A stretch of 11,428 bases of DNA from Desulfobacterales bacterium. Its GTDB lineage: Bacteria > Desulfobacterota > Desulfobacteria > Desulfobacterales > UBA2174_A. The DNA is taken from positions 1 to 11,428 of the forward strand of contig JALOPD010000123.1 in assembly GCA_025454075.1 (NCBI GenBank), written 5' to 3'. The notes below the pieces were generated by a model. It worked only from the letters and a program-made list of their open reading frames with translations, did not search any database and was not told the DNA's origin. The translations under genes were made by a program, and so were the position numbers. Shown in pieces: positions 5,005 to 8,857 of the stretch (its first letter is position 1; the number at the start of each line of letters is the position of its first letter).

Positions 5005-5124
5005 CCCGGTAATCAAACATGCCAAATTCCAAAATCTCAAGCACAGGCGGAGCGGGGTGCTCGCCACGGCGGGCACCCCGCTCCGCCTTCACCCGAACAA
5101 AATTTCGGTCATTTGATTGCCGGT
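5005..5124. repeat. Palindromic intergenic element, copy 1 (compact form)
   Basis: About 120 bp between the stop of aroF-pheA and the M20 gene. The outer arms match as an inverted pair, CCGGTAATCAAA (5006-5017) and TTTGATTGCCGG (5112-5123). The core is a perfect 15-bp stem, GGCGGAGCGGGGTGC (5046-5060) with GCACCCCGCTCCGCC (5073-5087), extendable inwards to about 20 bp with a 2-4 nt loop. The left arm (5006-5031) matches 8562-8587 at 24 of 26 positions, and the right core 5073-5094 matches 8812-8833 at 21 of 22. It encodes no protein. It resembles a REP- or MITE-like element. Its position in a likely transcript suggests a strong RNA hairpin that could end transcription, protect the upstream message or reduce downstream expression. 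Confidence 0.8.
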
Positions 5125-6996
5125 CTAATAGCAACCCAGGATCTTGAGATACTCGCTTTTCTCGGTGATCTCTTTGCGAACGGCGGCCATCTCCGGAGAC
5201 TCCAGGTCGGCCTCAAGGTCGATGTAGAACATGTACTTCCAGGGCTCCCCGGGGATAGGCCGGGACTCGAGCTTGATCATGTTGACCTGGTTCTCGGCAA
5301 AGACTCTCAGGATCGCGAAGAGGGCGCCGGGCTCGTTGCGCGCCGTGCAGATGAGCGAGGTCTTGGAAGTCTTGCGGTCCTCGATCGGCTCCTTGCCGAC
5401 GACGACAAAGCGCGTGTAGTTGCGCGGGTTGGTTTCGATGCCCTCGGCAATGACCGCCAGACCGTATATTTCGGCCGTGATGAGGCCGGCAATGGCGGCC
5501 TCCCCGGCCTCTTTCGAGGTGCTGACCCGTTCGGCGGCGCCGGCCGTGTCGCTCACGGCCACCAGCTCCCAGTGGTGCTGGGAGAGAAACTGGCGGCACT
5601 GCTCGATCCCCTGGGGGTGGGAGAGCACCCGCCGGATGTCGGACAGCTCCGTGCCGGGCTTCGCCAGCAGGTTCTGCATGATGCGGATTTTCACCTCGCC
5701 GATGATGCGCAGGTCGTAGTCCCGCAGCAGGTCGTAGTTTTCGTGGATGCTTCCGGAAAGCGAGTTCTCCAGCGGCACGATCCCGTAATCGATCCCGCCC
5801 GCCTTGATCGCCTCGAAAATGGACTGGAAGGTCGGCAGCGGCACCGCCTCGGCGGCGTCGCCGAAATACTGGAGGCAGGCCTTGTGGCTGAAGGTGCCGA
5901 CCCGGCCCATGAAGGCGGCCCGCTGGCGCGCGCTGCCGCTTTTGCGTTTGCGGTCGATGACCTTCACCCGCTCCAGGTGGGCGAAGTCGAGCTGCTTGCC
6001 GATGACCGGCGCAATCACATAGATGTCCCGCATGAGCTGGCGGAACTGCTGGGGGTAGAGGCTCTGGGCGCCGTCGGACATGGCGTGATCCGGATCGTGG
6101 TGCACCTCGATCATGAGCCCGTCCGCCCCGGCGGCAATGGCGGAGCGCGCCATGGGGCTCACCTTCTCGCGCATTCCCGTGGCGTGGCTGGGGTCGACGA
6201 TGATCGGCAGGTGCGTCAGCTTCTTCAGGACCGGGATGGCGGAAAGGTCGAGCGTGTTGCGGGTGTAGGGCTCGAAGGTGCGGATGCCGCGCTCGCACAG
6301 CACCACCTGGGTGTTGCCCTCGGACAAGATGTACTCGGCCGACATGAGCCACTCCTCGATCGTCCCCGACAGGCCGCGCTTGAGCAGCACGGGTTTGCCC
6401 ATGCGGCCCACGCACTTGAGCAGCTCGAAGTTCTGCATGTTGCGGGCGCCGACCTGGACCACGTCCACATACTTCATCATGAGGTCGGCCTGGGAGGGCG
6501 AGGTCATCTCGGTCACCACCCCGAGCCCCAGCGTTTCGCGCACCTCGGAGAGGATTTTGAGCCCGTTCTCCTCCATCCCCTGGAAGGAATAGGGCGAGGT
6601 GCGCGGCTTGAAGGCGCCGCCGCGGAACAGGCTGGCCCCGGCCTTCTTGACCTCGCGGCCGATGGTGAGCGCCTGCTCGAGGCTTTCGACGGCGCAGGGG
6701 CCGGCGATGACGCAGATGTTTTCGCCGCCGATGAGCACATCCCCCACCCGCACGAGGGTGTCCTGGGGATGCATTTCGCGCCCGACCAGCTTATAGGGGG
6801 TCTTGACCCGGGTCACCTTGGCCACTCCGGGCAGCCGCCGCAGCTCCTCCTCGGCGACCCCGGGCTTGCCGAGGATGCCGATGCGCTCGGCTTCCGTGGG
6901 CGGCAGCTCCCGGCAGTCGCAGCGCTTGGCCTTGAGTTTGCGGATCAGTTCGGTTTTGCCCTCCAGGGTGAGGTCTTTGTCCAGTTCCAGGATCAT
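5125..6996 (-). CDS. DAHP synthase (class I beta) - prephenate dehydratase - ACT fusion
   Basis: 623 residues, two enzymes in one chain. Residues 1-75 form a ferredoxin-like regulatory domain ending VKTPYKLVGRE, as in Thermotoga-type DAHP synthase. Residues 80-330 are the DAHP synthase barrel, which condenses phosphoenolpyruvate and erythrose-4-phosphate: IAGPC (C101), FKPRTSPYSFQG (129-140), KRG (206-208), DPSHATG (H271), MIEVHH (E297) and SDGAQ (D308), so all metal ligands are present. Residues 364-535 are prephenate dehydratase, which makes phenylpyruvate: GTFSHKA, VPLENSLSGS (407-416), SHPQGIEQC (459-467), DTAGAA and NYTRF (526-530). Residues 545-623 are an ACT domain with EPGALF (555-560) and ESRP (577-580), the Phe-binding motifs of feedback-inhibited PheA. 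No chorismate mutase domain is present between or before them. The start at 6996 has AAAGGAGG 8 nt upstream. An attenuator lies upstream (7032-7192). The stop codon touches the palindromic element. Confidence 0.95.
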   Translation of the reverse strand: MILELDKDLTLEGKTELIRKLKAKRCDCRELPPTEAERIGILGKPGVAEEELRRLPGVAKVTRVKTPYKLVGREMHPQDTLVRVGDVLIGGENICVIAGPCAVESLEQALTIGREVKKAGASLFRGGAFKPRTSPYSFQGMEENGLKILSEVRETLGLGVVTEMTSPSQADLMMKYVDVVQVGARNMQNFELLKCVGRMGKPVLLKRGLSGTIEEWLMSAEYILSEGNTQVVLCERGIRTFEPYTRNTLDLSAIPVLKKLTHLPIIVDPSHATGMREKVSPMARSAIAAGADGLMIEVHHDPDHAMSDGAQSLYPQQFRQLMRDIYVIAPVIGKQLDFAHLERVKVIDRKRKSGSARQRAAFMGRVGTFSHKACLQYFGDAAEAVPLPTFQSIFEAIKAGGIDYGIVPLENSLSGSIHENYDLLRDYDLRIIGEVKIRIMQNLLAKPGTELSDIRRVLSHPQGIEQCRQFLSQHHWELVAVSDTAGAAERVSTSKEAGEAAIAGLITAEIYGLAVIAEGIETNPRNYTRFVVVGKEPIEDRKTSKTSLICTARNEPGALFAILRVFAENQVNMIKLESRPIPGEPWKYMFYIDLEADLESPEMAAVRKEITEKSEYLKILGCY

Positions 6997-7004
6997 GGCG
7001 TGTG

Positions 7005-7012
7005 CCTCCTTT
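7005..7012 (-). promoter_or_regulatory. Ribosome binding site of the fusion gene
   Basis: AAAGGAGG on the minus strand, 8 nt before ATG 6996. It selects this start over the in-frame ATG at 7029, which has no good site and would lie only a few bases after the terminator U tract. Confidence 0.75.
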
Positions 7013-7031
7013 CCGGCTCTGCGCAACATCC

Positions 7032-7072
7032 AAAAAAAAACGTAAAGCCCCGAGGTTGTGTCTCGGGGCTTT
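7032..7072 (-). terminator. Rho-independent attenuator terminator
   Basis: On the minus strand AAAGCCCCGAG and CTCGGGGCTTT (7062-7072 and 7044-7054 in plus coordinates) form a perfect 11-bp stem with a 7-nt loop, followed after ACG by nine U (7040-7032). It lies upstream of the fusion gene, not behind a gene, so it must act inside the leader transcript. Confidence 0.9.
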
Positions 7073-7153
7073 CAATGCGAAACCCCGGACAGACCGCCAT
7101 CGGTCCATCCGGGGCTGTGTGTCGTTGGGTTTTGGCTACCGGCCCGGATGGAC
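7073..7153 (-). promoter_or_regulatory. Attenuator RNA: alternative pairing segments 1, 2 and 3
   Basis: Segment 1 (7143-7153) and segment 2 (7103-7113) are perfectly complementary over 11 bp (GTCCATCCGGG with CCCGGATGGAC). Segment 2 (7101-7114) also pairs with segment 3 (7083-7096): CCCCGGA/TCCGGGG plus GACCG/CGGTC. Segment 3 with its 3' flank (7079-7087, CGGGGTTTC) can pair with the 5' arm of the terminator (GAAAGCCCCG, 7064-7073; one bulge or wobble). Segment 1 is the coding sequence for the last codons of the leader peptide. A ribosome reaching the leader stop hides segment 1, 2:3 forms and the terminator forms. A ribosome stalled earlier leaves 1:2 to form, freeing 3 to break the terminator. 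Confidence 0.75.
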
Positions 7154-7192
7154 GCTTCTAAACCACCAAAAGCAAAAGAAGCGTCCAAACAT
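7136..7192 (-). CDS. Phe/Trp-rich leader peptide of the attenuator
   Basis: ATG at 7192 to TAG at 7136 encodes MFGRFFCFWWFRSVHPGR: 18 residues with five Phe and two adjacent Trp, seven of them among residues 2-11. Such clustering of aromatic residues in a tiny frame upstream of an aromatic biosynthesis gene matches the PheL/TrpL class of leader peptides. The gene lies about 30 nt after the predicted transcription start and 63 nt before the terminator stem. A weak Shine-Dalgarno (GAG, about 9 nt upstream) is present. Its product is expected to have no role except to let a ribosome sense charged tRNA-Phe, and perhaps tRNA-Trp. Since DAHP synthase also feeds Trp, the WW pair makes sense. Confidence 0.82.
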   Translation of the reverse strand: MFGRFFCFWWFRSVHPGR

Positions 7193-7229
7193 TTCTATCT
7201 CGACAGAATCGACTTCTGTAGTTTCGTCC

Positions 7230-7258
7230 TTTCTAAGGTTTTTCCCGATGGCTGTCAA
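7230..7258 (-). promoter_or_regulatory. Sigma70-type promoter of the leader and fusion gene
   Basis: On the minus strand a perfect TTGACA (7253-7258) is followed by a 17-nt spacer and TAGAAA (7230-7235; 4 of 6 to TATAAT). Transcription would begin near 7223, giving a leader of about 227 nt to the ATG at 6996. It lies in the spacer just after the lipoprotein stop codon, so the fusion gene has its own promoter. Confidence 0.65.
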
Positions 7259-8561: not shown

Positions 8562-8857
8562 CCGGCAATCAAATATGCCAAATTCCACCAACTCACGCAG
8601 AGGCGAAGCGGGGTGCCCGCCGCGGCGAGCCGCAACCACCCGTTCAACGAACCAACGTACGGCAGCCAGCCCGCTCCATACTACCTCAAACAGCCCCAGA
8701 GGAACCTCTTTCACGGAGCCGCCGGCCGTCGCTGCCTGCCATCGGTTCCATGGGACGGCTGGGGGGCGTGGCAGCGTCGCCTGAAGCATTGGTTGCGGCG
8801 CGCCGCGGCGGGCACCCCGCTCCGCCTTTACCCAAACCCGAGTTGGCATATTGCCGG
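8562..8857. repeat. Palindromic intergenic element, copy 2 (expanded form)
   Basis: This fills most of the 461-bp gap between the divergent lipoprotein and lon genes. The inner arms 8602-8638 and 8790-8826 form a 37-bp inverted repeat with two mismatches, very GC-rich. The outer ends are also inverted: CCGGCAATcaaATATGCCAA at 8562-8581 against TTGGCATATTGCCGG at 8843-8857, with a 3-nt difference in spacing. The arms match copy 1. Between them lies a 151-nt insert (8639-8789), GC-rich, without a convincing reading frame and absent from copy 1. The rest of the gap (8509-8561 and 8858-8969) shows nothing firm except the lon ribosome binding site; no good promoter was identified there. Confidence 0.8.

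Follow-up and report, generated by a model that had tools for sequence, protein, structure and literature searches.

The DAHP synthase-prephenate dehydratase-ACT fusion gene of this Desulfobacterales contig (5125..6996, minus strand; Pfam DAHP_synth_1, PDT, and ACT) is preceded by a region in which an earlier note, made from the sequence alone, recognized a ribosome-mediated attenuator, and the question raised by this locus is whether the gene is controlled in this manner and, if so, by which amino acid. We analyzed the whole stretch of 11,428 nucleotides, hereafter called the window, together with the corresponding loci of related bacteria. The region is very probably a ribosome-mediated transcription attenuator with six segments, of the his type, which would allow transcription of the fusion gene during a shortage of charged tRNA-Phe.

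Layout of the leader region and its helices

The attenuator region, from 7258 to 6996 on the minus strand, comprises a promoter, a leader reading frame, two strong hairpins, a run of nine T residues, and, after a Shine-Dalgarno sequence, the beginning of the gene. The putative promoter, found by reading, consists of a -35 box (TTGACA, 7253..7258) and a -10 box (TAGAAA, 7230..7235, four of six matches) separated by a 17-nt spacer, from which transcription would start at approximately 7223; it is absent from the list produced by our promoter scan because the scan demands T at the last position of the -10 box. The leader peptide gene, MFGRFFCFWWFRSVHPGR, occupies 7136..7192 including its stop codon, with ATG at 7192-7190 and TAG at 7138-7136. 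Five of its 18 codons specify Phe (codons 5, 6, 8, and 11 among them) and two specify Trp (codons 9 and 10), and this density of Phe and Trp codons was attained in none of 100 shuffles; no strong Shine-Dalgarno sequence was seen by eye in front of the frame. The structural gene is preceded by its own Shine-Dalgarno sequence, AAAGGAGG (7005..7012, by reading), and most likely starts at the ATG at 6996, 8 nt past AAAGGAGG, and not at 7029 as in the mechanical list of open reading frames; the alignments of most fusion-protein relatives begin at residues 7-12 of the longer frame.

Six segments, all on the minus strand, may be distinguished between the leader and the T run (7032..7040). Segment A (TGGACGCTTCT, 7177..7187) lies inside leader codons 2-6 and forms a perfect 11-bp duplex with 7159-7149 in segment B (7143..7159, leader codons 12-17), which has an alternative partner in segment C (7101..7116; 7153-7143 with 7113-7103, 11 bp). 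Segment C is also complementary to segment D (7080..7096; 7116-7101 with 7096-7081, 16 bp, G-U pairs among them), segment D to segment E (7062..7072; 7087-7080 with 7071-7064, 8 bp), and segment E, the 5' arm of the terminator, to its 3' arm, segment F (7044..7054; 7072-7062 with 7054-7044, 11 bp), which is separated from the T run by ACG. The helices fall into two compatible sets, A:B + C:D + E:F and B:C + D:E, each of which excludes the other, and this is the six-segment order of a his-type attenuator. The intrinsic terminator ahead of the gene is mutually exclusive with the antiterminator helix D:E, and both E:F and D:E are conserved, as described below. The promoter, the leader with five Phe and two Trp codons, the duplexes B:C, C:D, and D:E (there called 1:2, 2:3, and 3:terminator arm), and the terminator with its T9 run all lie on the minus strand where the earlier note had placed them. 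Its claim of a complete anatomy holds for these four helices, but segment A (7187-7177) and the A:B helix had been overlooked, and they bring the total to six segments and five helices.

Such an arrangement rarely arises by chance. When a chain was defined by stems of at least 8 bp with at least 5 nt in common between consecutive stems, the window contained a chain of five stems, which was found in none of 2000 dinucleotide shuffles; the longest chain among them had three stems (twice), and four or five never occurred. The leader region folds with a z score of -5.44, none of 200 shuffles being equally stable, and the terminator is the most-paired among 23 terminator-like sites in the window, of which 10.5 were expected from shuffles.

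A search of the window against Rfam release 15 up to E = 1 returned three matches, none of which reached gathering and all of which are unrelated and lie in other parts of the window, and 28 loci searched with Rfam covariance models at gathering scores gave zero matches. A GC-rich repeat also occurs in three places in the window (5006-5098, 8562-8638, and 8790-8837), in or near intergenic gaps, with two copies inverted relative to each other and 151 nt apart; it looks like a dispersed palindromic element.

Conservation of pairing and marks of translation

A scan of one genome per species yielded 269 protein relatives, of which the best 80 (87-57% identity) were retained; these are mostly labelled Desulfobacterales, Desulfobacteraceae, Syntrophobacteraceae, or Deltaproteobacteria, the nearest belonging to uncultured Desulfobacterales and Deltaproteobacteria. 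The window and 32 relatives were aligned with MAFFT (alignment A1, not fitted to structure), and a covariance model, R1, containing only A:B, C:D, and E:F was built from this alignment. Full-length R1 matches on the strand of the gene and upstream of it were obtained at 73 of the 80 loci (weakest 8.6e-7), and at 41 of the 48 outside the training set. At two loci (L063 and L078) the match runs up to the contig end, and at three others (L017, L048, and L061) the sequence begins approximately 170 nt or less from the gene, so that the presence of the element cannot be judged; only two among the 80 (L038 and L052) have sufficient upstream sequence and no R1 match.

Pairing is kept in these relatives while the sequence changes. 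In alignment A1, 94.0% of the cells of A:B + C:D + E:F are paired, compared with 91.1% in shuffles and 54-56% when one side is slid by one column, and 14 pairs have changed on both sides (7.5 in shuffles). The corresponding values for the alternative set, B:C + D:E, are 96.9% paired, compared with 95.5% in shuffles and 54-64% when slid, and four pairs changed on both sides (1.5 in shuffles, a value of four being attained by 12 of 500), while the number of pair types in this set was not clearly above the shuffles of A1 (attained by 56 of 500). By helix, 94.5% of the A1 cells are paired in A:B, 99.4% in B:C, and 93.8% in D:E. When 74 loci, i.e. the window and 73 relatives, were aligned to R1, paired cells amounted to 730/777 in A:B, 704/737 in B:C, 873/949 in C:D, 500/581 in D:E, and 774/806 in E:F, and since B:C and D:E are absent from R1, this alignment was not fitted to either helix.

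One column of segment C common to B:C and C:D is A or G depending on the locus; in 72 of the 74 it can pair on either side, partly through G-U pairs, its states over B, C, and D being UAU in 29 loci, CGC in 23, UGC in 16, CGU in four, and others in two. This column changed at least six times on a quick protein tree, from which one of the 74 proteins was excluded as too short. Tree-based tests of paired changes at this column were not significant, with only two independent pairs on well-supported branches (two to three in the tree tests overall); on supported branches, D changes together with C in nearly all random pairings, and B in about a third. The earlier note had staked its reading on the recurrence of the leader codons and of compensatory changes at homologous loci, and it came through this comparison, as the Phe codons are kept and the helices have changed on both sides.

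The leader also bears marks of translation. The loop between A and B measures 5, 8, 11, 14, or 17 nt, a single class modulo 3 in all 33 sequences of A1, while all three classes are represented in each of the remaining four spacers. Read in the frame of A, the first stop codon has its end 8 nt past alignment column 47 (7144 in the window, adjoining the end of B) in 28 of the 33 sequences, 5 nt past it in four, and 11 nt past it in one. Judged by these whole-codon loop lengths and by this fixed stop position, the leader appears to be translated. A simple start finder recovered leaders at 67 of the 74 loci, all 67 having at least three Phe codons within the element and four having Tyr; the finder prefers aromatic frames, and the choice of frame is biased towards aromatic content accordingly. 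Among the seven loci missed, four (L066, L072, L074, and L076) have a longer Phe-rich frame in another listing, from which the row of L048, an indexing artifact, was disregarded.

Richness in Phe and Trp codons within a single sequence was dropped as proof, because T-rich upstream regions yield similarly dense frames when shuffled at many loci. Over the 74 loci, the observed density was attained by zero to one shuffle in 20, two to five in 18, six to 20 in 27, and more in nine. A short frame rich in codons for the product of the pathway is present, with clear support from shuffles in the window and weak support in many relatives.

Two explanations that dispense with the leader peptide have to be weighed against these results. 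A riboswitch or a protein-dependent terminator, in which a ligand or a protein would operate the hairpins and the short frame would be incidental, could be entertained, since family membership is not decisive where Rfam gives no match; nevertheless, an incidental frame is at odds with loops that change by whole codons, with the fixed distance from the stop to B, and with the kept Phe codons. Moreover, the leader codons track the gene in related elements, and no conserved unpaired pocket was noticed by eye in A1, so that we consider this explanation highly improbable. Still less probable is a constitutive terminator of the upstream gene, beyond which the fusion gene would have a new promoter of its own. 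It would fit the location here of the most-paired terminator-like site of the window and the position of the upstream gene on the same strand, but in 57 of the 72 loci tested an exact TTGACA precedes the element by no more than 110 nt (a raw count; in most of these, a sequence beginning with TA stands 16-18 nt downstream), and a transcript from there would meet the terminator. It also gives no reason for A, B, and the alternative helices to be kept, and just 35 nt, including the Shine-Dalgarno sequence, separate the T run from the gene start. The core claim of the earlier note, a ribosome-mediated attenuator answering to Phe before the fusion gene, is supported by the kept Phe codons, the pair changes on both sides, and the whole-codon A-B loop.

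Proposed order of folding and the amino acid probably sensed

Under the proposed mechanism, a ribosome on the leader would reach the stop codon and cover B when Phe is plentiful, upon which C:D and then E:F would form and transcription would terminate at the T run. When Phe is scarce, it would stall at codon 5, 6, or 8 and cover A, B:C would form once C emerges, and the free segment D would pair with E before F is made, allowing the polymerase to continue into the gene. A further response at Trp codons 9 and 10 is possible. An untranslated leader would form A:B, followed by C:D and E:F, and the switch would be off by default; attenuation as envisaged by the earlier note stands, but its version, which would read through if the leader is untranslated, does not agree with A:B, for which termination is predicted. 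With a footprint of 28 nt, segment A lies completely under a ribosome at codon 5 or 6 and, except for a single base, under one at codon 8, while a ribosome at the stop codon covers 7153-7126, which includes every base of B that pairs with C. The early control codons lie over A and the stop codon just behind B, as in his-type leaders.

When the RNA was ended at E and a 28-nt mask was applied, the mean probability of B:C in the family was 0.55 (n = 33), 0.52 (n = 33), and 0.60 (n = 29) with the ribosome at aromatic core codons 2, 3, and 4 (numbered from 0 at the Gly codon), compared with 0.14 without a ribosome and 0.00 with the ribosome at the stop codon (33 sequences each). In equilibrium folding of the window, C:D stays despite a ribosome at Phe codons 5, 6, and 8 (B:C of 0.00, 0.02, and 0.11, and 0.00 at codon 11), and the terminator forms in the full RNA of the window in every ribosome state; therefore, read-through must be kinetic, i.e. 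depend on the order of folding. As equilibrium folding reproduced neither read-through in the full RNA nor the switch of the window, we did not accept it as a way to simulate switching.

The energies of the isolated helices are -17.4 (A:B), -17.4 (B:C), -26.3 (C:D, 13 of its 16 pairs), -12.5 (D:E), and -20.2 kcal/mol (E:F). Before F is made, B:C + D:E is favored over C:D by 3.6 kcal/mol with C:D counted at 13 of 16 pairs, and the barriers on direct paths from B:C + D:E amount to 16.7-19.7 kcal/mol. These calculated values are compatible with a kinetic switch and do not constitute proof of one. B:C + D:E was not the more stable in eight of 33 sequences, of which at least three (L007, L010, and L024) look misaligned in E by eye. 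Two features count against the mechanism, namely, the weak Shine-Dalgarno sequence of the leader and the 3 nt between the terminator stem and the T run.

A rival reading is that of an attenuator sensing Phe and Trp about equally, which would suit an enzyme whose first step, DAHP synthesis, feeds all three aromatic amino acids. Besides W9 and W10 of the window, each of the six nearest relatives (L001-L006) has one to three Trp codons in its leader, and in A1, the A-B loop holding Trp exceeds the most frequent loop length by one or two codons both in the window and in its four relatives. By coordinates, a ribosome at W9 leaves 11 of the 11 C-pairing bases of B free (28-nt footprint) and one at W10 leaves 10 of 11, so that our idea that the latter would hide much of B was rejected (it hides one base of 11, compared with four at F11). 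On the other hand, Trp occurs in only 15 of the 67 detected leaders, whereas at least three Phe codons occur in all of them; among detected leaders, only those of the window and of three nearest relatives (L001, L002, and L004) have neighboring Trp codons, with a single Trp in L003, L005, and L006. A ribosome at W9 or W10 also uncovers part of A, and A:B then reaches 0.18 and 0.28 before F is made, compared with 0.00 at the Phe codons, while B:C in the window (0.02 and 0.05 at W9 and W10) does not discriminate from the values at the Phe codons given above. Furthermore, seven of the eight related elements assigned to trp genes have three to four Trp codons and at most one Phe codon. Equal sensing of both amino acids is therefore possible though rather doubtful. 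Of the starvation for Phe or Trp proposed in the earlier note, the Phe part is solidly backed by comparison, given that Phe codons recur in the whole family, and the Trp part must be called uncertain, as the Trp codons are not kept in the family; a response to Trp is possible.

Enteric pheA and trp leaders are four-segment switches in which a stalled ribosome covers segment 1. The present element resembles them in its Phe or Trp codons, in the competition between a terminator and an antiterminator, and in the control of prephenate dehydratase or the Trp pathway, but differs from them in the use of two more segments and in the fusion of prephenate dehydratase to DAHP synthase. Attenuation of trpEDCBA and pheA is described for E. 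coli and other gammaproteobacteria (PMC5343134). A closer parallel in layout is the his attenuator of Salmonella enterica, in which E:F forms if the leader is translated to its stop codon, B:C + D:E forms if translation lags at the control codons, and A:B is the default without translation (PMC4046918). The two share a short leader peptide, the E:F terminator, the de-attenuated B:C + D:E state, and the A:B default (PMC4046918). The likeness concerns the layout; in the window, Phe codons take the place of His codons and a fusion gene that of the his operon, and the bacterial group is another. Moreover, unlike in Salmonella, C:D is also followed by a T run in at least 24 of 68 fusion-gene loci (e.g. 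L016, L039, and L031; absent from the window), a lower bound because the pattern search misplaced the D arm in several loci, and this run may represent a second terminator in tandem.

Related elements before other genes of the phylum

R1 had matches with E up to 1e-3 in at least 61 of the 297 genomes sampled within the phylum to which the genome of L001 belongs, a lower bound since stricter filters were used and 10 candidates were scored per genome; among eight genomes behind loci of our set, matches were found in six. We analyzed 69 of these wider loci, leaving out L081-L084, L091, and L092 as fusion-gene loci already in the set (L091 and L092 are apparent copies of L040 and L031; L096, an apparent copy of L051, was retained). 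Family scans of 22 genes followed by BLAST to those assigned 58 of the 69 loci. These comprise nine fusion genes, eight type Ib and four AroFGH-type DAHP synthases, eight ADTH synthases, seven aminotransferases of one family and two of another, seven TrpE (L110 and L128 by Pfam domains only, and L147 and L153 by BLAST to L138 only), one TrpB-like protein, and three LeuA. Also assigned were three periplasmic-binding-protein-like and two GNAT-like genes, whereas PaaK (below the curated cut-off), shikimate kinase, a CoA transferase, and a metallo-beta-lactamase-fold protein occurred once each. Matches near E = 1e-4 with neither a plausible leader nor a plausible gene were regarded as false; among the 11 of the 69 loci without assignment, L124 has a convincing leader and a gene cut by the contig end.

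The codons of these leaders vary with the gene. Leaders with at least three Trp codons precede seven of the eight trp genes and two of the 50 other assigned genes, one of the 50 having no leader (Fisher p 9e-7), and this comparison between gene classes is less affected by the bias in frame choice because Phe, Trp, and Tyr are weighted alike in it. The two exceptions are type Ib DAHP synthase genes, L119 (genome G114) and L121 (G081), with three to four Trp codons, while the fusion genes of the same genomes, L099 and L097, have Phe leaders; the isozymes of G114 and G081 are apparently told apart by their leader codons. The leaders before the remaining DAHP synthases and the ADTH synthases have Phe and Tyr, and mostly also Trp. 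Those before LeuA are moderately Leu-rich, and B:C was unsupported in them (zero of three loci), so that the LeuA loci are only candidate members.

B:C was assessed before the other genes by a crude duplex test, which is passed if at most two of 50 shuffles are as good and into which 46 of the 69 loci were entered (excluding fusion genes, loci lacking assignment, L136, L139, and L142); seven with a single hairpin were dropped, and 20 of the 39 parsed loci were supported. Of the seven TrpE loci in this test, six could be parsed and one passed. We propose, tentatively and at somewhat less than even confidence, that one ancestral six-segment attenuator spread through the amino-acid genes of the phylum, with its leader codons changing with the gene. 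On this proposal, Phe codons would serve the fusion gene, Phe, Tyr, and Trp codons the common pathway (DAHP synthases and ADTH synthase), Tyr and Phe codons an aminotransferase, Trp codons trpE, the trpB-like gene, and the second DAHP synthase, and Leu codons, perhaps, leuA.

Several further loci were noted in the course of this analysis. In Desulforhabdus (L087:1463-1712, genome G004), a phenylacetate-CoA-ligase-like gene, whose best NCBIfam match is below its cut-off, is preceded by an R1 match (4.4e-6) and by a leader containing 10 Phe codons, perhaps the sign of a Phe-controlled route from phenylacetate; a single hairpin was parsed at the locus. The genes with weak GNAT matches at L109 and L125 lie behind Phe/Tyr-rich leaders, which suggest an aromatic role. 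The periplasmic-binding-protein-like genes at L118, L122, and L142, two of which have Phe-rich leaders and the third a candidate, may encode aromatic amino acid transporters. At L136 and L139, R1 matches before an aminotransferase gene are accompanied by a similar non-aromatic upstream frame, GRRDRFSPGGGALI..., and these are possibly another kind of leader RNA.

Partial notices of such elements exist. The gene family named ADTH synthase in NCBIfam, before which R1 finds leaders, is presumably aroA'. In Desulfovibrio vulgaris, a putative attenuator before aroA'-aroB'-aroQ-pheA-aroF-tyrA is listed as derived from a database (PMC1173090, Table 7); it concerns an aromatic operon in the same broad bacterial group but a different gene, and the listing gives neither a leader peptide nor helices. 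In Geobacter, a predicted RNA (Gmet_R0069 / GSUR082) lies before a DAHP synthase gene, the same table including one before leuA (PMC2700814). This RNA, too, is conserved, precedes DAHP synthase, and comes from the same broad group; the likeness is drawn from its description, and the table gives neither a mechanism nor a leader peptide for it (PMC2700814). In the accessible parts of the open-access literature on attenuation and leader peptides in Deltaproteobacteria, Desulfovibrio, Geobacter, and Desulfobacterota, we found no description of a leader-peptide attenuator other than these two partial listings (PMC1173090, PMC2700814), and in a survey of premature terminators from 2010 (PMC2965389), a word search restricted to the main text did not return Deltaproteobacteria, phenylalanine, pheA, Desulfo, or Geobacter. 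It is fair to say, with the earlier note, that such leaders readily escape notice in this group, but earlier lists did include an attenuator of aromatic genes in Desulfovibrio and a predicted RNA in Geobacter (PMC1173090, PMC2700814).

The type of switch is known, and it is conserved here in many relatives within a group for which only partial earlier notices exist. The present analysis adds a well-supported his-type attenuator in environmentally important bacteria and names many short leader genes that length-limited gene callers would miss, and the covariance model could be offered to Rfam. Similar RNA layouts with different control codons provide a natural series in which codon position, the order of folding, and tandem terminators are comparable. 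The wider set of R1 matches is the more interesting part of the finding. The three DAHP synthases of E. coli are each inhibited by a different aromatic amino acid, namely, Tyr, Phe, or Trp (PMC5343134), and if the proposed spread of one attenuator through the phylum is true, leader codons would tell the isozymes of one genome apart, as an RNA counterpart of these feedback-specific enzymes.
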